Shown here one piece after another: positions 3,420-47,285 of a DNA stretch of 50,402 bases. Every line of letters starts with the position of its first letter. Position 1 is the first letter of the stretch. The translations under genes were made by a program, and so were the position numbers. The stretch covers positions 1 to 50,402 of the forward strand of contig DATCRI010000065.1 of the NCBI GenBank assembly GCA_036569045.1, given 5' to 3'. The stretch comes from Chthoniobacterales bacterium (GTDB lineage: Bacteria; Verrucomicrobiota; Verrucomicrobiia; Chthoniobacterales; JAATET01). Below the pieces are notes generated by a model. The model searched no databases. It saw only the letters and a program-made list of their open reading frames with translations, and was not told the origin of the DNA.

Positions 3420-4544
3420 TCAACCCGGCTGGCCGGTAATCGCGGGGTCCCAGTCCTTCCAGACGGGATCGAGCCCCAGGCGAGCAAGGCGATGGGCGAC
3501 TTCGGCGGGAGAGCGATCGTCGGAGATGGAGAATTGCTCCGTGGCAGCGGTGGCGGGGCCGTCGCAGGCGACCTGCCGGCCCTTGACCGTGAGGTGCAGG
3601 CTTTCCGTGCCCTGGCCGGTGTAGCCGCCAGGTTCCGTGTGGCTGCCGGCGCTCATCATGGTGATGCCGATTCGCGCGGCGGCGTCGCGCAGCGGGGCGG
3701 GCTCGCGGGTGCTCATCACGATGCCGATGTGCGGGAACGTGAGTCGCAGCGCGCAGATGAGCTGGAGAAACTCGCGGTCGGGCAGCGGCTGGCGGGGCTC
3801 GAAATCTCCCGCGGCGGGTTTCAGGCGCGGCAGGCTGACGGTGATCTGGGCCTTCCAGCAGCGCTTCATCAGGTAGTCGATGTGCGTGGCGAGGGCGACG
3901 GCTTCATCGCGCCAGTCCCAGAGCCCGAACAAGGCGCCGACGCCGAGACGGCGGAAGCCCGCGTCGTAAGCGCGCTCGGGGCAGTCGAGTCGCCAGTCGA
4001 AATTCTTCTTTGGCCCGTGGACATGCATCTCCGCGTAGGTCGCGCGATGGTAGCTTTCCTGATAAACGACGAGCCCCTCGGCGCCCGCGGCGACAAGCGG
4101 GAGATAATCGGCAGTTTCCATCGGGGCGACCTCGAGCGAGATGCCCGGGACGATCGGGGCGAGGGCGCGAATGCAGCGCTCGAGGTAGCCGTTCGAGACG
4201 AACTTCGGATGCTCGCCGGCGACCAGCAGGATGTTGCGAAAGCCCTCGGCCGCGAGGTGGCGCGCCTCGGTGAGCATCTCGTCGATCTCGAGCGTCACGC
4301 GCAGGATGGCGTTCTCGCGCGAGAAGCCGCAGTAGCTGCAGGAGTTAATGCACTCGTTCGAGAGATAGAGCGGCGCGAAGAGGCGCATCGTGCGCCCGAA
4401 AAACTTGCGCGTGGTCGCGGCGGACTCGGCGGCGAGCCGGTCGAGCTGCGCATCGCTGACGGGGTCGAGCTGGCGGCGGAAACGCGCGGCGAAGGGCGAT
4501 TCCAGGCTGGCTTCGAATTGGGACGAGAACGACATCGCAGTCAT
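3420..4544 (-). CDS. thiH: 2-iminoacetate synthase ThiH (tyrosine lyase, thiamine biosynthesis)
   Basis: A radical SAM enzyme that cleaves tyrosine to dehydroglycine and p-cresol, supplying the glycine imine for the thiazole ring of thiamine. The protein has 374 residues, close to E. coli ThiH. The cluster motif is Cys65-x3-Cys69-x2-Cys72 in LSNECINSCSYCGF, the form typical of ThiH and its relatives. Its end (GLDPVWKDWDPAI) matches the Trp-Lys-Asp-Trp-Asp tail seen in ThiH. HydG, ThiH's close relative, is longer and carries extra C-terminal cysteines, which are absent here. The start may be ATG 4544 or ATG 4535. It lies 67 bases downstream of the dehydrogenase gene on the same strand. No thiG or other thi gene and no TPP riboswitch is seen nearby. 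Confidence 0.9.
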   Translation of the reverse strand: MTAMSFSSQFEASLESPFAARFRRQLDPVSDAQLDRLAAESAATTRKFFGRTMRLFAPLYLSNECINSCSYCGFSRENAILRVTLEIDEMLTEARHLAAEGFRNILLVAGEHPKFVSNGYLERCIRALAPIVPGISLEVAPMETADYLPLVAAGAEGLVVYQESYHRATYAEMHVHGPKKNFDWRLDCPERAYDAGFRRLGVGALFGLWDWRDEAVALATHIDYLMKRCWKAQITVSLPRLKPAAGDFEPRQPLPDREFLQLICALRLTFPHIGIVMSTREPAPLRDAAARIGITMMSAGSHTEPGGYTGQGTESLHLTVKGRQVACDGPATAATEQFSISDDRSPAEVAHRLARLGLDPVWKDWDPAITGQPG

Positions 4545-4572
4545 TTTAACGGCGATTTTTCGAATGAACAGG

Positions 4573-4589
4573 GGGAGAAATTTTCTCCC
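4573..4589 (-). other. Short inverted repeat between dehydrogenase gene and thiH
   Basis: GGGAGAA and TTCTCCC arms separated by three bases sit just past the stop of the upstream dehydrogenase gene. On the minus strand no run of T follows directly, so it is a weak terminator or attenuator candidate at best. It may separate expression of the dehydrogenase gene from thiH. Confidence 0.3.
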
Positions 4590-4611
4590 GATGAGGGGCT
4601 CGATTCCGGAG

Positions 4612-6363
4612 CTATTTGCCCAGCGGGAGAGGCTGGCCGGGTTGGAAATGCGAGAACGGGCTGTCCTTCAACGCGAGGACGGTCTCGCCGGTGGCGTTTT
4701 GCGCGCGAATCTCCACCTGCCCGGGCTTCACGCCGTCGGGCAGCGTGGCGCTCCAGCGGTAGTCCTCGACGCGGGCGTCGATCGGTTTGCCGCCGCTCAC
4801 GATCGTGACCTTCGAGCCGGGGGTGACTTCGCCGGAAATGAGCTGCCCGTCCTGACCGACCCAGGCGATGAATGGCTTCAGGTCGTAGAGGCTCTGGTGG
4901 TAGGCGACCTGAGCGGCGAGAGCCTTTTCGGAGAGCGGGGCATCGCTTGGGCCTTCGGCCATCTGTTTGATGTCGGCCGCGAGGACGGGATAGGGATGGT
5001 AGGACCGCTTGCCGTAGAATGATCCGAAGGGGCCGTGGCAGCGGGCGCAGTTGGCGTTGAAATAGCTGATCGCGGCGAGTTCGGGGAGTTCCGGAGCCTT
5101 CGATGTCGGGGCGGACAATGTGGCGGCGGCGCGCCGCGGCGTCGAGGCCGGCACGGGAGTCCCGGGATTGGCCGGAGCGCCCGTCCAGGTGATCCGATAG
5201 ATCCGCTTGCCGGAGTCACTGCTGAAAAGCACGGAGCCGTCGGGCGCTTCGACGCAATCCACGGGGCGATCGAGGACATTGGTGCCGTCCGGGGCAAGCG
5301 TGCTGACGATGCACTGCGCGCCGCAGGGATCGCCGGTGAAGGGGTCGAACATCACGCGCTCCACGCGGTAGCCCACCTTCACGCTGCTGTTCCACGAGCC
5401 GTGAAGGGCGACGAATGCGTCTCCTCGTTGAGCGGGAAAGGTGTCCTTCGTGAGAAACGTGAAGCCATTGGGCGCCCAGTGCGCGCCGAAGGACCAGGCC
5501 GGCGGGATGGTCTTTGCGGCGAGTTCGAGGATGTCCGGACGTTTCTGGAATTCGATCCGGGGAACCCGGTTGCCGACGATGAACGGATGCCCGTAAAAGC
5601 CGCCCAGAACGTAATGATTGAACTCGCAGGGCGGGTTGAAATCGGTGACGGGTTGAAACTTCTGGCCCTTTCCGACTTTCTCGCCCAGCGGGCCGCCGAA
5701 ATTGTCGGAGCCGTGATCCACTCCCCACACCTCGTTCGTGCCCGGGCGCAGGCGGAGTTTCTCGGTGTTGCGAATGCCGGAGGCGAAGAGCGCCTTGCTG
5801 CCGCCTTTCAAATCGTAGTGCCAGATCTTCTGGCGGTCGGTCGCGGATTCGTCGTTCGTGTTGCCGGAATCGCCGATCGATGTGTAAAAGCCGTCGTCGG
5901 TGACAAGCAGCGAGCGCCACCAATGGCCGCCGCCGCTGGGAAGATTGGCGAGCACCGTGACGACTTCGTCTGCCTTGCCGTCGCCATTCGTGTCGCGAGC
6001 CTTGAGGATGGCGCCCGTTTGCGCGAACCACAGCCAGCCGTCGTGGAAGGACATCGCGTGCACCTTGGGCAGGTTCGTCACGAAGGGAGTGACGGTCTCG
6101 TAAACGCCGTCGCCATCCGTGTCGCGCAGGGCCTGGATCGCGCCGGCAGCCGGTTGCGAGAGATAGAGCGTTCCCTTGTCGTCGAATTCCATCGCGCGAG
6201 CCTCGCCGAGCTTTTCTGCGGCCAGAGTCACGCGATAGCCGGGACGCACCGAGAACGGAGGAACGCCGGGGCCGACCTCGCCGCCGCTGGGGAGATTCTC
6301 CGCGCCGAGATTGCAAGAGGTGAGGGCGAGGATCGCGGCGACCAGAGTCTTCCGGGGGGACAT
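4612..6363 (-). CDS. PQQ-type sugar dehydrogenase-like lipoprotein fused to a c-type heme domain
   Basis: A 583-residue exported protein. The N-terminus is a short signal ending in a lipobox-like LTSC, so it may be lipid-anchored. Residues ~35-400 read as a six-bladed propeller of the glucose/sorbosone dehydrogenase family, with repeated blade motifs such as RDTDGDGVYE and RDTNGDGKADE and the strands FVALHGSWN and YRITW. After a Pro/Ala-rich linker comes CARCH (Cys439, Cys442, His443), a single c-type heme site. This architecture fits a periplasmic oxidoreductase that passes electrons to its own cytochrome domain; substrate and cofactor are inferred only. The ATG at 6363 is preferred because upstream codons in frame run antisense through avtA. 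It is divergent from avtA. Confidence 0.8.
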   Translation of the reverse strand: MSPRKTLVAAILALTSCNLGAENLPSGGEVGPGVPPFSVRPGYRVTLAAEKLGEARAMEFDDKGTLYLSQPAAGAIQALRDTDGDGVYETVTPFVTNLPKVHAMSFHDGWLWFAQTGAILKARDTNGDGKADEVVTVLANLPSGGGHWWRSLLVTDDGFYTSIGDSGNTNDESATDRQKIWHYDLKGGSKALFASGIRNTEKLRLRPGTNEVWGVDHGSDNFGGPLGEKVGKGQKFQPVTDFNPPCEFNHYVLGGFYGHPFIVGNRVPRIEFQKRPDILELAAKTIPPAWSFGAHWAPNGFTFLTKDTFPAQRGDAFVALHGSWNSSVKVGYRVERVMFDPFTGDPCGAQCIVSTLAPDGTNVLDRPVDCVEAPDGSVLFSSDSGKRIYRITWTGAPANPGTPVPASTPRRAAATLSAPTSKAPELPELAAISYFNANCARCHGPFGSFYGKRSYHPYPVLAADIKQMAEGPSDAPLSEKALAAQVAYHQSLYDLKPFIAWVGQDGQLISGEVTPGSKVTIVSGGKPIDARVEDYRWSATLPDGVKPGQVEIRAQNATGETVLALKDSPFSHFQPGQPLPLGK

Positions 6364-41044: not shown

Positions 41045-42796
41045 TTAAGGCGTGCGAAGGATGATCACCTTCACGGGAGAAGACTCCAGATTGGAAAGAT
41101 CCACCGCGATGATTTTCACGACAGTGCGGCCAATTCGCGGCCGCAGGGTGAGCTTCCATTGTTTGGTTCCCTTGGCGATGGCGAATTTCTCCTGGCCGGT
41201 CACCTTGTAGATAACGCGATCGAGGCCCGAGTCGTCACTGGCGGTTCCGCGGAGGATGATACGAGCGCTGTGGGTCTGGAGCTGCGCGCGGCCTCTCAGA
41301 GTGAGCTTGGGAGGAGTGATGTCAGCTTTGGGGAGCGATTCGTCGGGGAGGGGGCTGGGGCTGGCGCTGGGAGTGGGCGTCGGGGATGGAGTTTCGGGAG
41401 CGACTCGGAAGTCCGCGATGAGGATGGACGTATCCCGGATGGTGGCGGCGTTGTTCGCGGTGCCTTCCTGGCCGGTGGGGGTGCCGAGGTAGTCGAGATT
41501 GGGATCGGAGAACCGCAGAATGCGGGTCGCGCTCTTGCGGGAGGCGTCGCCGGTGGAGGCGACAACGGTTACGAAGGCGGCGCCGCTGCTGAGGAAATAG
41601 TGGGCGAAAGAGTCGGCGTAGTAGGATGTGGGCGTCGAAGAATAGCTGTCGCGCAGATGGCGGCATCCGTGATTGTGGCCGACTTCGTGGACGAAGGTGC
41701 TGGTGGGATTTTTCGCGCGAACGACGTTGAATGCGTTCCTGAGGCCAATGGTGGACTGGTAGTTGACGTTGGAAAGGCCGCCATCGACGTTGCTGTCGAT
41801 CCACAAGGAAACGATGTCGGCCCCCACCTGGTCGCGGTAGGCGTGCACCTCGTCGATCTTCCCGTCGGCGGTGCTGCGGAGTTCTGCGAGGGCGCGATCC
41901 ATTCCTTCGCTTGCGGGGTAGTCATAGTCGATCGGGTTGACGGCCACGGCCCGAAGGGTGACCGCGATGTTGGAATCGGAGAGCGCGGTGTTCCCGTCTG
42001 TGATGGAGGTCTGGATCTTTGCGCGAATATCAGCGTCGTCGGAGGGAACTCCGACGGCGCCACCTACCGAGACTCGTGCCTGGTCGTTGAAATAGATGGC
42101 GATGTCTTCGACGACATTTGCGGGAGCGGCGCGCGCAGTGCGAGAGGTGCTCGGCGGGGTCGTAGACGATGAGACGGTGGTGTCGGAGTCGGTGTCGGAA
42201 CCACTCGCGCGATCGGCAGCGCATGGAAGGTCGCTGGCGGCGGTGAGTTTCTCGACCCGGATGTTGCCTCCCGGACCGCGGCGGATCTCGAAGTTTCCCA
42301 GCTGCGCACCGTGGATCGACGCGTAAATCGCGTCGCCGTGCACGCTGATGGCGACGCGTCCCAGCGGAACTCCATCGATTCGGCCGGCGAGGGCGTGCGC
42401 CTTCGTGGCGCGGTCGAGCGATTGTGAGGAGGTGATGGTGACGGGCACAGCGAGATCTGGGGAAAGTTGCAGGGTGATCCGGTCGCCCCGGCGGTAATTC
42501 GGAATCGGCCTGGTTCCAAAGACGAGTTCGCGAGTGACTCCCTGATAAGTTGGTGCGGTGGGGGGAATCGGAGAAAGGATCGGGGTGAGATTTGCGGATG
42601 CAACCGGGATTGGAGCCGGCGCTGCGGAGGGAGCGGCGGGCAATGGCAGGGCGCGCGCCGAAATGGGGGAGGGAGCTGCGGGGGAGAGAGCCGGCGGGAG
42701 CTTTGCGACGGGTGTCGGCGATTCGAGGAGATGAAAGGCTCCGAGGGCAATGGCTGCACCTCCAACCAGCCCGCCAAGAATTTGACCGCCCTTCAT
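41045..42796 (-). CDS. Secreted zinc metalloprotease (metzincin, reprolysin/M12-like)
   Basis: A 583-residue exported protein. The N-terminus is a hydrophobic segment (ILGGLVGGAAIALGAFHLL) followed by a Pro/Ala-rich stretch. The zinc site is FVHEVGHNHGCRH: His370, Glu371, His374 and His380, the HExxHxxGxxH of metzincins. A later run, RILRFSDPNLDYLGTPTG, is common in bacterial M12-like proteases, which usually have a Met-turn (MAY) just before it; here I read VVAS, with no Met. A Thr/Pro/Ser linker (~473-490) leads to a C-terminal module of ~90 residues, similar to the one ending the subtilase at 31.1 kb. Confidence 0.85.
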   Translation of the reverse strand: MKGGQILGGLVGGAAIALGAFHLLESPTPVAKLPPALSPAAPSPISARALPLPAAPSAAPAPIPVASANLTPILSPIPPTAPTYQGVTRELVFGTRPIPNYRRGDRITLQLSPDLAVPVTITSSQSLDRATKAHALAGRIDGVPLGRVAISVHGDAIYASIHGAQLGNFEIRRGPGGNIRVEKLTAASDLPCAADRASGSDTDSDTTVSSSTTPPSTSRTARAAPANVVEDIAIYFNDQARVSVGGAVGVPSDDADIRAKIQTSITDGNTALSDSNIAVTLRAVAVNPIDYDYPASEGMDRALAELRSTADGKIDEVHAYRDQVGADIVSLWIDSNVDGGLSNVNYQSTIGLRNAFNVVRAKNPTSTFVHEVGHNHGCRHLRDSYSSTPTSYYADSFAHYFLSSGAAFVTVVASTGDASRKSATRILRFSDPNLDYLGTPTGQEGTANNAATIRDTSILIADFRVAPETPSPTPTPSASPSPLPDESLPKADITPPKLTLRGRAQLQTHSARIILRGTASDDSGLDRVIYKVTGQEKFAIAKGTKQWKLTLRPRIGRTVVKIIAVDLSNLESSPVKVIILRTP

Positions 42797-42899: not shown

Positions 42900-44195
42900 T
42901 CACGCGGCCGCTGTGCGCGGAGATGTTTCCTCGCTGGCTTTTCTCGATTTCCGGGGGTGGGCGGCCGGTTTCTTTTTGGAGCCGGCGGCGGCGTGCAGGC
43001 CGGCCTTGACCTTCGGATGGGCGGTGCCCGGGCCGAGGAAAACGTGGCCGGAGAAGATCAGGAAGCCGAGGCAGACGGCGTTGATCGTGGCGAAGCGGGC
43101 GACACCTTTGCCGAGCCAACCGTCGCCGAGCAGACGGTGTTTCTGGTTCCACGGCTTGAAGAGGTCGTAACCGATGAGCAGGGCGGCGTGGTAGAAGCCG
43201 TAGATCAGGAAATTCGGGGCGAAGCCGTGCCAGAGGCCCATCAATCCGAAGCTGAGGCCGTAGCCCAGGTGGGAGGCGTGCTGCGGGCGGGCGAGCCACT
43301 TGCGCTTCGTCGCGGTGAGAACGAACCGCATGTAGACGTGATCGCGAAACCACGTGGACAGGCTGACGTGCCAGCGATTCCAGAAATCCTTGATGTTGAT
43401 CGCGGCAAACGGGCGATTGAAATTTTCCGGCGTGCGGATGCCAAAGAGCAGGCTCGCGCCGACGGCGAAGGCGCTGTAACCGGCGAAGTCGAAGAACAGG
43501 AAGGCGCTGTAGGCATACATGTAGGAGGCGATGCCAGGCAGTCCGGCCTGCTCCGTGGCGGGGTCGAGCCAGTATTTCTTGATGAGATACGCGAGGATGA
43601 ATTTGTAGAGCAGGCCGCGAAAGAGATGGCGCACGGCTTCATCGAGGTCGGCGAGCACCGGCGTGCGGGCGGCGTTGGCGACCCAGTCCTTCTGAAAGCG
43701 GCGGTAGCGATCGATCGGGCCGGAGGAGAGCGGCGGGAAGAAAAAGAGGAAGGTGAAGAGCTGCGCGGCATCGAGGGTGGCGATGAGGCCGTCGTCCAGA
43801 CCGAAGACGACGTCGAGGCTGCGAAAGGTGACGTAGGAAATTCCGAGGAAGCCAAAGGTGCTGTTGCCGGCGAGCCAGGGGAGCATGCGGCAGAGCACAA
43901 GCGGCGCGAGGGCGAGCGCGATGGCGGCGTAGAATCCCCAGCGTCGTCGAGCGGAGGAAACGGGCGCGGCGGCGCGGAAGCGAAGGAAACCGTAGGCCAC
44001 GGCGCCCTGCCAGGCCGCAAAGCCGAGGAAGGAAAGCACGAGATGCGACGATGTGCAGAATTGCAGGACGATCATCACCGCGGAGCAGGCGAGCAGCCAG
44101 TAGCGGATGTCGCGCCCGAGGCTGCGAAGAAGCAGGACGGGAAGGGCGAGCGCGGCGAGGGCGCCGAAATAGCCGAGATCGGTGTAGGGAATCAC
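42900..44195 (-). CDS. dltB: DltB-like MBOAT acyltransferase (D-alanyl transfer across the membrane)
   Basis: A 431-residue membrane protein with about ten hydrophobic segments. In Gram-positive bacteria DltB passes D-alanine from the carrier DltC across the membrane. The MBOAT hallmarks are here: FDFAGYSAFAVGASLLFGI, PENFNRPFAAINIKDFWNRWHVSLSTWFRDHVY, and the putative catalytic His323 in GLMGLWHGFAPNF. The GTG start forms a GTGA overlap with the dltA stop. After the last membrane segment it ends in an unusual basic Lys/Ala/Pro-rich tail of ~40 residues. The operon context (dltC, dltD, dltX, dltA) makes the DltB name firmer than the AlgI alternative. Confidence 0.88.
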   Translation of the reverse strand: MIPYTDLGYFGALAALALPVLLLRSLGRDIRYWLLACSAVMIVLQFCTSSHLVLSFLGFAAWQGAVAYGFLRFRAAAPVSSARRRWGFYAAIALALAPLVLCRMLPWLAGNSTFGFLGISYVTFRSLDVVFGLDDGLIATLDAAQLFTFLFFFPPLSSGPIDRYRRFQKDWVANAARTPVLADLDEAVRHLFRGLLYKFILAYLIKKYWLDPATEQAGLPGIASYMYAYSAFLFFDFAGYSAFAVGASLLFGIRTPENFNRPFAAINIKDFWNRWHVSLSTWFRDHVYMRFVLTATKRKWLARPQHASHLGYGLSFGLMGLWHGFAPNFLIYGFYHAALLIGYDLFKPWNQKHRLLGDGWLGKGVARFATINAVCLGFLIFSGHVFLGPGTAHPKVKAGLHAAAGSKKKPAAHPRKSRKASEETSPRTAAA

Positions 44196-45658
44196 AGGAG
44201 TTGGGCGAGCTGGCGGCGGTCGGCCTTGCCGTTGGCGGTCATGGGAAAGCTTTCGAGAAAGCGGAACTTCTTCGGGATCATGTAGGAGGGCAGCCGTTCG
44301 CCGAGAGCGCTTCGCAGGGCGAGGAGCAGATCGAGATCGGTGCGGCCATCGCGCGAACGGGGAATCACGAAGGCGGCGAGCAGATCGGGCGTTCCCTGCC
44401 CGGTGACGGGGAGGACGACGGCGTCGCAAACGTCGGGCAATTCGCGCAGGTTTGCCTCGATGTCGCCGAGTTCGATGCGGTAGCCGTTGAGCTTGATCTG
44501 GCCGTCCATGCGGCCGGTAACGAAGAGCAGGCCGCGCTCGTCCAGCGAGCCCCAGTCGCCCGTGCGATAGGTGCGCAGGCCGTTCGCGAGGCCGAAAACC
44601 CGGTCGCTGAGGTCGGGGCGACCGAGGTAGCCGACGCTGACATTGTCGCCGTGGATAACGATTTCGCCCGCCTCGCCGGGAGGAAGGGCTGCGCCGGATT
44701 CATCCCGGATCTCGACGCGACCGCCGGGCATGCAAAAACCGACGGGCAGGGCGGGATGGTGCGCGAGGACTTCGCGATCGATGGCGATGGAGGTCATGGC
44801 CACGGTGGCCTCGGTGGGACCGTAGGTATTCCACACGGCGGCGGTCGGGAAGCGGGCGAGAAGTTCCGCCGCGACAAACGGGGGCAGCGTTTCGCCGCAG
44901 AAGAGGAAGCGACGGACGTCGGGGAGTAGCTCCGCGGAAAAGCGGGGATCGGCCAGGCACATCTGGGCGAACGATGGCGTCGAAACCCAGATCGTGATGC
45001 GGGAGCGGGCGAGCGTGTCGGCCAGACGGCGGAGATTCGCGATGTCGTCCTTCGAGATGCTGAAGAGGGTGCCGCCGGTGGTGAGGCTGAGGTAGAGGTC
45101 CATCACCGAGAGGTCGAAGGAGAACGGCGCCTGATTCAGGAAGACCTCGCCGGCGGGGGAGAAGCGTTGTTCGGTCGTCATCCACTCGAGGAAAGTGGCG
45201 AGGTTTCGCGACGTGATCACGACGCCCTTGGGTTCGCCGGTGCTGCCCGAGGTGAAAATGATGTAGTGCGGATCGTCCGGGCGGCGGACGGGAAATGGGA
45301 TGGCGGCCGGAGCCGGCTGGGCGAGGATCTCGCGGATGCCTGCTGGTGTGAGGACGAGCGCGCAGGCGGAGGTTTTTTCGACCTGGGCCACGCGGGCCTC
45401 GGGCCAGGAAACGTCGATCGGGATGTAGGCGCGCCCGGCTTTCAGCACGGCGAGGAAGGCGACGAGCATCTCGGGCTCCTTGTGCCCCCGGACGACAACG
45501 GGAGCTTCTCCCTCGGGGAGGGAGTGGAGGAGGTGCCGGGCGAGATGATCGGAGGCGGTTCCCAGCGCCCCGTAGGTCAACGTTGCGTCTCCACTGAGGT
45601 GAGCGGGCCGGTCTGGAGTGCTCCGCACCCAATGGGCGATCTCGGCGAGGATGTCCAT
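44192..45658 (-). CDS. dltA: D-alanine--carrier protein ligase DltA
   Basis: A 488-residue adenylating enzyme that activates D-alanine with ATP and loads it on the DltC carrier. ANL-family motifs are IIFTSGSTGEPKGV (residues ~133-146), WNTYGPTEATVAM, TGRMDGQIKLNGYRIELGDIE and the C-terminal catalytic Lys478 in TANGKADRR. The overall length and the run APFSFDLSVMDLYLSLTTGGTLF match DltA. The D-alanine pocket was not checked residue by residue, so another amino acid is possible. It starts 4 bases after the dltX stop; GTGA overlap with dltB. Confidence 0.92.
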   Translation of the reverse strand: MDILAEIAHWVRSTPDRPAHLSGDATLTYGALGTASDHLARHLLHSLPEGEAPVVVRGHKEPEMLVAFLAVLKAGRAYIPIDVSWPEARVAQVEKTSACALVLTPAGIREILAQPAPAAIPFPVRRPDDPHYIIFTSGSTGEPKGVVITSRNLATFLEWMTTEQRFSPAGEVFLNQAPFSFDLSVMDLYLSLTTGGTLFSISKDDIANLRRLADTLARSRITIWVSTPSFAQMCLADPRFSAELLPDVRRFLFCGETLPPFVAAELLARFPTAAVWNTYGPTEATVAMTSIAIDREVLAHHPALPVGFCMPGGRVEIRDESGAALPPGEAGEIVIHGDNVSVGYLGRPDLSDRVFGLANGLRTYRTGDWGSLDERGLLFVTGRMDGQIKLNGYRIELGDIEANLRELPDVCDAVVLPVTGQGTPDLLAAFVIPRSRDGRTDLDLLLALRSALGERLPSYMIPKKFRFLESFPMTANGKADRRQLAQLL

Positions 45659-45662
45659 GGCC

Positions 45663-45797
45663 TCAGAACCCCTGATAAATAAAGGCAGGCGTCTTGAAGG
45701 AGCCGGAGGAGTAGATGAGGAACACTCCCAGCAGGATGAGGAGGTAGTAAAGCGCGAGCAGGGCGACCCTAGTCCAGCGTGGCGGGAAGTTTGTCAT
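45663..45797 (-). CDS. dltX: DltX-like microprotein (44 residues)
   Basis: A 44-residue protein between dltD and dltA. It starts MTNFPPRWTRVALLALYY, continues as one membrane segment (LLILLGVFLIY) and ends SSGSFKTPAFIYQGF. Gram-positive DltX proteins are about 50 residues, with a Trp/Arg start, a Leu/Tyr-rich membrane segment, a Gly/Ser turn and a C-terminal FIYNEF that contacts DltB and DltD. The match of FIYQGF at the very end, the size and the place right before dltA are together strong evidence. The ATG lies inside the end of dltD (29-base overlap) in another frame, and the stop is 4 bases before dltA. There is no Shine-Dalgarno, so translation is probably coupled to dltD. Confidence 0.88.
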   Translation of the reverse strand: MTNFPPRWTRVALLALYYLLILLGVFLIYSSGSFKTPAFIYQGF

Positions 45798-47001
45798 GGT
45801 AAAACTGATCGATCAGGCGATTGAAATACATCCAACCCTTCGCGCTCGGGTGGCCCATCTCGTCGTTGAAGAAGGACGGGTCGGTTTCGTGGGTCTCGAA
45901 GGTCTCGAAGGGAAAGTGGTAGGGGCGCAGTTTGTCGCGCAGCATCGCGTAGTAGAGTTCCCGATCCACGGGCTTCACGCCGGCCGTCGCGAAAGAGGTC
46001 GCGTTGATGGGAATGCTGATGATGAGCGGCTTCACGCCAAGCTCGCGCATCGTGCGCAGGAGGAGGTCGAGGTGATACCACTCGTCCGATCTCTCGAGCA
46101 TGACCTGAAAGGGCTCGGCTTTCTTGCCGCCGAGTTTGAGGGCGAGTTTCTCGGCCGAGGGACCATTTCCGTCGGGATATTCTTCGGCGAGATCCGCGCT
46201 GGAATGCCGCTCGCTGGCGGATTTCGTGAGGTCGTCCCACGCCGGTTTTTGCTTCGGCGTTTTTGCGGGAAGCGAAAGTCCGGTCGGGTGTTGAACGATC
46301 TTCGGAGAAAGCGCCAGCGTGGTGGAGCATTCGTCGATCGCATTGAGAAAATCCCCGACGTAGCCGCCCAGGCCGAGGGCGATCCTGTCCTCGAGCGATG
46401 GAGTCCTGTCCGTGAGGCGTTTGAGTTCGAAGCGGAGGAATTCGTGTCCGGCGAGAGCCTTGGGATACTTCAGGAACTCCGTTGCGAAGGCGCGCTTCAA
46501 ATCCGGCGAGAGCGAGCTTTTGAAGATGAGCTCCTCGGCCTGGAGGGCGGAGAAATTTCCCTCGTAGAAGCCAACGCCTTCCTTTTCGGAAAGAAACCAG
46601 GTGGGCGAGAGAATGATGACGACTTTGCGACCGCGAATCGCGTCGCCAAGGGCGCCCAGACGATGGGCGATGATGAGCGTCTTCGAGCCGGCCTTTCCGA
46701 CGATGAACAGACCGAAACCCGTGGGATGCGTCGCGAAAAACATGCGACCGGCGTAGGGGGAATCATTTCGGAATTCGGAGCTGCCGTAGATGGGGAGGAG
46801 GTCCTTGTCGGCGAAAGCCTCGCGTTGCAACGCGAGGCCCTGATCCTTGACCTCGAGCATGTCCGAGGCCGTGAGATGGGCCAGCCGTCGGTCGAAGTGA
46901 AGGGCGGAGAGCAGCCAGAAGAGTCCGCCGGCGAGCGCCACGGCGAGGGCGCCCGCCGAAAGATGCGGGGCGCGAATCCAGAACGGTGCCGTGGTCGACA
47001 T
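45769..47001 (-). CDS. dltD: DltD-like D-alanine transferase/esterase
   Basis: A 410-residue protein with one N-terminal membrane segment (LSAGALAVALAGGLFWLLSAL) and a large extracytoplasmic domain. In Gram-positives DltD moves D-alanine onto teichoic acid. The SGNH-like catalytic pieces are visible: PIYGSSEF with Ser74/Ser75, and SFFNDEMGHPSAKGW with Asp380 and His384 near the end, the place and spacing expected for DltD. It lies between dltC (8 bases upstream) and dltX, whose start is inside its last codons. In this diderm the acceptor must be a different envelope polymer or lipid. Confidence 0.9.
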   Translation of the reverse strand: MSTTAPFWIRAPHLSAGALAVALAGGLFWLLSALHFDRRLAHLTASDMLEVKDQGLALQREAFADKDLLPIYGSSEFRNDSPYAGRMFFATHPTGFGLFIVGKAGSKTLIIAHRLGALGDAIRGRKVVIILSPTWFLSEKEGVGFYEGNFSALQAEELIFKSSLSPDLKRAFATEFLKYPKALAGHEFLRFELKRLTDRTPSLEDRIALGLGGYVGDFLNAIDECSTTLALSPKIVQHPTGLSLPAKTPKQKPAWDDLTKSASERHSSADLAEEYPDGNGPSAEKLALKLGGKKAEPFQVMLERSDEWYHLDLLLRTMRELGVKPLIISIPINATSFATAGVKPVDRELYYAMLRDKLRPYHFPFETFETHETDPSFFNDEMGHPSAKGWMYFNRLIDQFYHDKLPATLD

Positions 47002-47009
47002 GCCGGAAA

Positions 47010-47285
47010 TCAGGGCGTGGGGGAGGCGAGCTTGCGGCGGACGAATTCCTCGATCGCGCGAGGCGTGGCGACATTTTCCTCCTCGATCTCGGTGGGGGCG
47101 ACCTCGACCGAGAAGCGCTCGCTCAACCCGAGGATCAGGCTGACGATTCCAAGGGAGTCGAGAATGCCCGTCTCCCGGATTTTGAGGTCGGGCGCGGTGC
47201 GGAGCTCGTCGACACCGGTGATGGAAATGAGAAGGTCGAGAACTGCGGCGTGCAGTTCCTCGTCAGACAGCGGTCCGTGGATCAT
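47010..47285 (-). CDS. dltC: D-alanyl carrier protein DltC
   Basis: A 91-residue acyl-carrier-type protein that holds D-alanine on a phosphopantetheine arm. The attachment site is Ser44 in TGILDSLGIVSLIL. The helix before it and EEENVATPRAIEEFVRR fit DltC and related carriers. It is the first gene of the minus-strand dlt operon and is divergent from priA. Context makes it the likely partner of DltA and DltB. The start is the ATG at 47285. Confidence 0.88.
   Translation of the reverse strand: MIHGPLSDEELHAAVLDLLISITGVDELRTAPDLKIRETGILDSLGIVSLILGLSERFSVEVAPTEIEEENVATPRAIEEFVRRKLASPTP

Follow-up and report, generated by a model that had tools for sequence, protein, structure and literature searches.

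In the Dlt pathway, as set out in PMC12148441 on the basis of its reference 25, the D-alanyl group travels from DltC via DltB to the tyrosine within the FxYxxF hexapeptide of DltX and from there to the serine of DltD. In other MBOAT systems, the hexapeptide is borne by the MBOAT protein itself (PMC12148441). According to PMC5541007, DltX stems almost exclusively from Firmicutes (805 of 809 species), and its topology is that of a single helix preceded by a short N-terminus in the cytoplasm and followed by an exposed C-terminus. With regard to Gram-negative bacteria, a dltB mutant of Dickeya has been found to survive polymyxin more poorly (PMC3544676). Our literature search, which covered mainly openly available papers, returned no study on verrucomicrobial dlt genes.

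The window, i.e. the whole stretch of 50,402 nucleotides from a member of the Chthoniobacterales that was analysed here, carries an operon of five minus-strand genes in the order dltC-dltD-dltX-dltA-dltB. Its features are the following:

47010-47285, minus strand: dltC, D-alanyl carrier protein with a DSL phosphopantetheine site (TIGR01688, 52.9 bits; cut-off 52.35)
45769-47001, minus strand: dltD, SGNH-type D-alanyl transferase (Pfam DltD, E 4e-48; TIGR04092, 157 bits; cut-off 150)
45769-45797, minus strand: overlap of the dltD 3' end with the dltX 5' end, 29 nt, with constraint acting on the dltD frame
45663-45797, minus strand: dltX, encoding a membrane protein of 44 residues with one transmembrane pass that is predicted to act as an acyl-tyrosine shuttle
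45675-45677, minus strand: Tyr41 codon; this tyrosine is predicted to carry the D-alanyl group and does not vary among 56 aligned DltX sequences
45666-45683, minus strand: FIYQGF, C-terminal acyl-shuttle hexapeptide (family motif FxYxxF; PMC12148441)
44192-45658, minus strand: dltA, D-alanine:carrier protein ligase (NF003417, 541 bits; cut-off 476)
42900-44195, minus strand: dltB, MBOAT D-alanyl transferase (TIGR04091, 419.5 bits; cut-off 375)

DltA, DltB, DltC and DltD each score above at least one curated cut-off (Pfam and/or NCBIfam). The dltX gene starts 29 nt inside the 3' end of dltD in a different frame, only four bases (45659-45662) lie between its stop codon and the ATG of dltA at 45658, and the GTG start codon of dltB overlaps the stop codon of dltA (GTGA), so that the reading frames are tightly packed. 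Past dltB, a minus-strand ORF (41045-42796) contains the zinc-protease-like motif HEVGHNHGCRH and might encode a secreted metalloprotease.

The minus strand from the ATG at 45797 to the TGA at 45663-45665 encodes the protein MTNFPPRWTRVALLALYYLLILLGVFLIYSSGSFKTPAFIYQGF. A sequence-only reading of the window had proposed a 44-codon gene between dltD and dltA, and its coordinates, its overlap with dltD and the gap of four bases are all as claimed. Nevertheless, an ORF that is very short, overlaps dltD, scores under the Pfam cut-off and shows no clear Shine-Dalgarno sequence upstream of its ATG might have arisen at the dltD-dltA junction by chance and only resemble DltX. Against this stands a leave-one-out profile, made from the sequences of relatives minus the window DltX and its nearest sister, which gave the dltX ORF 59.2 bits (E 1e-17) and none of the other ORFs of the window (813 in total) more than 6 bits. 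With the same profile, dinucleotide shuffles totalling 208 kb reached a top score of 7.0, and none of their ORFs ended in F[IVL]Y..F. Since the gene is moreover kept in related loci and its substitutions are concentrated on third codon positions, the probability of a chance ORF is negligible, and this reading was rejected on the basis of the conserved frame and motif.

The sequence-only reading had suggested looking for a conserved small gene in other verrucomicrobial dlt loci. Ten related loci from the same genus and order each contain exactly one ORF ending in F[IV]YQ.F, with the frame kept, and in nine of them this ORF lies directly before dltA. At the tenth locus (L023, genome G017), dltX stands with dltD and dltC but no dltA or dltB follows; DltB is encoded on another contig, so the operon is split there. 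Four further genomes (G455, G458, G462 and G467) also have dltX and dltB on different contigs.

The two proteins are closely associated at the level of the order. Among 213 genomes, DltX occurs in 53, true DltB in 53 and both in 51 (Fisher p 4e-44), where a contig-edge fragment in G438 was counted as present and a weak DltX match in G489 (E 4e-4) was left out. Contig edges apparently account for the four exceptions, judged from coordinates alone: DltB without DltX is located at a contig start in G561 and G572, and DltX without DltB near a contig end in G451 and G559. Within the genus of the window, one genome (G003, 99% complete) has neither DltX nor DltB, and the operon is therefore patchy at this level. 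In the 80 named loci, dltX directly precedes dltA-dltB wherever those genes share a contig. Chloroflexota bins as well as Desulfosporosinus and its relatives have the order C-D-X-A-B too, and Bacilli have X-A-B-C-D. At three loci (L069, L076 and L144), dltB, or dltA together with dltB, was seen without any DltX in the stretch viewed. Dlt sets with DltX are also found in bins labelled by their submitters as Chloroflexi, Anaerolineae and Proteobacteria (L079, L080, L075 and L078).

Selection on the frame was compared for a single pair, the window and its nearest sister (G002, L022). In the part of dltX that does not overlap dltD, 22 of 35 third positions differ, against 7 differences at the 68 first and second positions (p 5e-8). 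For the whole gene, the NG86 method gave a dN of 0.13 and a dS of 1.59 for this one pair of sequences. The codon pattern indicates that purifying selection on the dltX frame is strong in the unique part. Within the 29-nt overlap, four of the five differences, a small count from one pair, fall on position 2 of dltX codons, which are third positions of dltD, and dltD is the constrained frame there. The sequence-only reading had named selection on the dltD frame alone in the overlap as a refutation of the gene. However, the constraint on dltD seen there does not refute dltX, because the unique part is under purifying selection and the start codon is kept. The sister retains the ATG and the residues MTN, and several of residues 4-9 vary.

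A comparison with DltX profiles had also been proposed. With the Pfam DltX model (PF12459), the window protein scores 22.9 bits (E 6e-5), about 2 bits short of the gathering score of 25 bits; residues 12-44 align to profile positions 11-43 of 43, so that the last position of the profile is reached. This near-miss is probably due to the dominance of Bacillota in the profile. Four relatives from the same order pass the cut-off, and 55 of 56 aligned DltX sequences match the model at E ≤ 0.01. When the Pfam model was run against the whole phylum, no match exceeded the cut-off, and only weak matches were obtained besides the window's own genome; the NCBIfam models did not match the window DltX, and a PDB sequence search with it gave no direct match. 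The profile-profile comparison of verrucomicrobial DltX with an alignment of Bacillota DltX only resulted in an E-value of 3.8e-18 over 45 columns. A C-terminal [FY][IV]Y..F is present in all 117 DltX sequences collected, and three positions are invariant among the 56 aligned ones, namely Tyr18 in the helix and Tyr41 and Phe44 in the tail.

The AlphaFold model of the single chain contains a helix at residues 7-30 and a short C-terminal helix at residues 40-43 (mean pLDDT 84), which agrees with the single helix published for the family. The maximum 19-residue hydropathy is 2.63, from residue 11; the only charged residues flanking the hydrophobic core are Arg7 and Arg10 on its N-terminal side and Lys35 on its C-terminal side. 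By analogy to the DltX family, the N-terminus would be cytoplasmic and the C-terminus would lie outside. The layout ascribed to the protein in the sequence-only reading, with one hydrophobic helix and a C-terminal FIYQGF, thus holds, and homology is backed by profile, motif and gene order. Taken together with the predicted helix, the co-occurrence with DltB and the purifying selection, these results support the classification of the ORF as a genuine DltX homologue.

We consider it very probable that this ORF is dltX and that, within a complete dltC-dltD-dltX-dltA-dltB operon, it provides the acyl-tyrosine shuttle, the chemistry and the membrane orientation being modelled on those of Gram-positive bacteria. 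In the cytoplasm, DltA would load D-alanine onto DltC. Via DltB, the D-alanyl group would then cross the membrane and reach Tyr41 of DltX, which would have its N-terminus in the cytoplasm, a single helix spanning roughly residues 7-30 and its FIYQGF tail in the periplasm. This tail would swing toward DltD and hand the D-alanyl group to the catalytic serine, and DltD would set it on an envelope polymer. Against the proposed shuttle operon stand the Pfam score under the cut-off, the lack of an NCBIfam match and the departure of DltD from the Bacillota pattern at its catalytic His block. It is a reasonable inference that the whole D-alanylation machine works in the verrucomicrobial host.

It is conceivable that the protein is indeed homologous to DltX while the cargo of the operon is not D-alanine but, for example, another amino acid or a small acyl group. 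The DltA of the window indeed reaches only 529 bits with the equivalog model TIGR01734 (cut-off 559.85). However, it exceeds the cut-off of NF003417, its nearest relative in the PDB is DltA from B. cereus (3fcc, E 7e-136) and the FLFCGE block is kept, and we therefore regard a different cargo as improbable. The nearest PDB relative of the window DltB is DltB from S. thermophilus (8jem, E 2e-66), and the FWNRWH and WHG blocks, which hold the active-site residues His289 and His336 in S. thermophilus, are intact. The translation of this DltB does not end in an FxYxxF hexapeptide, and the mechanism therefore calls for DltX as a separate protein. The absence of this hexapeptide also bears on the reading in which DltX serves DltB as a structural or regulatory subunit and does not carry an acyl group covalently. 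The role of DltX is not settled in PMC11035591, where it is suggested that DltX may regulate DltB, but the tyrosine is invariant in the 56 aligned DltX sequences and, according to PMC12148441, it accepts the acyl group in the Dlt pathway and an equivalent acetyl-tyrosine has been shown in PatA. We therefore judge a purely structural or regulatory role to be unlikely and prefer the acyl-tyrosine shuttle.

The nearest solved relatives of the window DltD are structures of Gram-positive DltD proteins. Its catalytic blocks are GSSE and DEMGH, the latter replacing the DxxH of Bacillota, with Asp at H-4 and Glu at H-3. The DltD proteins of the clade (window, L022-L029 and L070-L080) are without the Asp that Bacillota have at H-3 (KDTIH), and most of them have an Asp at H-4 (e.g. 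NDEMGH or GDSLGH), which possibly represents a shifted catalytic triad. There is also a second dlt type in the genus of the window, at L028 (positions 4239-5459, genome G001) and L151 (contig 140 of G002). In its DltD, GSCE replaces GSSE and the block preceding KGW (FGFADPNPKGW) is devoid of His; a normal DltX (FIYQGF or FIYQAF) lies next to it. G002 possesses both types.

In the DltB tree, the window falls into a set of 25 rows, made up of Verrucomicrobiota and Chloroflexota together with one 'Proteobacteria' bin and three Bacillota bins, which is split from 26 Bacillota rows with an SH-aLRT value of 99. The composition of this set has to be read with care, since the tree is a quick, unrooted one with long branches (L028 and L029) and bins as named by their submitters. 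A recent transfer of the dlt genes from Bacilli was considered and is not supported by this split; the tree leaves room for an ancient transfer.

The host genome encodes LpxC and two Omp85 proteins. We did not find a CDP-glycerol glycerophosphotransferase (PF04464) in the 98% complete assembly, whose degree of completeness makes this absence strong but not absolute evidence, and none of the three PF00884 proteins of the host is LtaS-like; they resemble aryl or choline sulfatases or a phosphatase. The polymerase genes expected for a polyol-phosphate teichoic acid are thus absent from the host genes searched, and therefore a classical teichoic acid is probably not the acceptor. In this LPS-bearing host, the acceptor is more likely to be LPS or a different surface glycan or lipid. 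From the gene content, a complete D-alanylation gene set is present in outer-membrane bacteria that appear to be free of teichoic acids. The substrate of the Dickeya dlt system is likewise an open question (PMC3544676). We lean slightly toward a diderm/Chloroflexota clade of five-part dlt machines, with a DltX signature of its own (YGxGxFxTPxF[IV]YQ[GE]F) and an altered DltD block, that D-alanylates a non-teichoic acceptor (LPS or glycan) in Verrucomicrobiota.

The strict accompaniment of DltB by DltX across an LPS-bearing order suggests that the microprotein is part of the core machine and not a feature of the Gram-positive wall. The DltX sequence of L072 (Chthoniobacter) matches that of G450, and L070 (Udaeobacter) matches G569. 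The question of the dlt target in diderms becomes directly testable in groups such as these two genera, and diderm dlt systems may bear on the resistance to cationic antimicrobials in soil.

In comparison with known systems, the locus resembles the dltBAC genes and dltD homologues of Dickeya, Pectobacterium and Photorhabdus by its occurrence in a diderm (PMC3544676). In contrast, dltX is not mentioned in PMC3544676 (0 occurrences), and dltD (pbpG) is listed there apart from the dltBAC operon. With PatA, the MBOAT protein of peptidoglycan O-acetylation, the system shares a hexapeptide acyl-tyrosine shuttle (e.g. FIYANF; PMC12148441). However, in PatA the motif forms part of the MBOAT protein itself and the acetyl group is derived from acetyl-CoA, whereas the motif of the window resides on a separate microprotein beside a carrier protein. 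Features in common with DltX from Bacillus thuringiensis and other Bacillota (PF12459) are a length of about 45-50 residues, one helix, a short N-terminus, a C-terminal FxYxxF with an invariant Tyr and a gene immediately upstream of dltA (PMC5541007). Differences concern the residue following the Tyr, which is almost always Gln here (QGF or QEF) and Asn, Thr, Ser or Ala in most Bacillota DltX, as well as the gene order (CDXAB versus XABCD in Bacilli), the overlap of the dltX start with dltD and the diderm host. The novelty of the verrucomicrobial DltX is taxonomic, since a familiar type of protein occurs in a new envelope setting.
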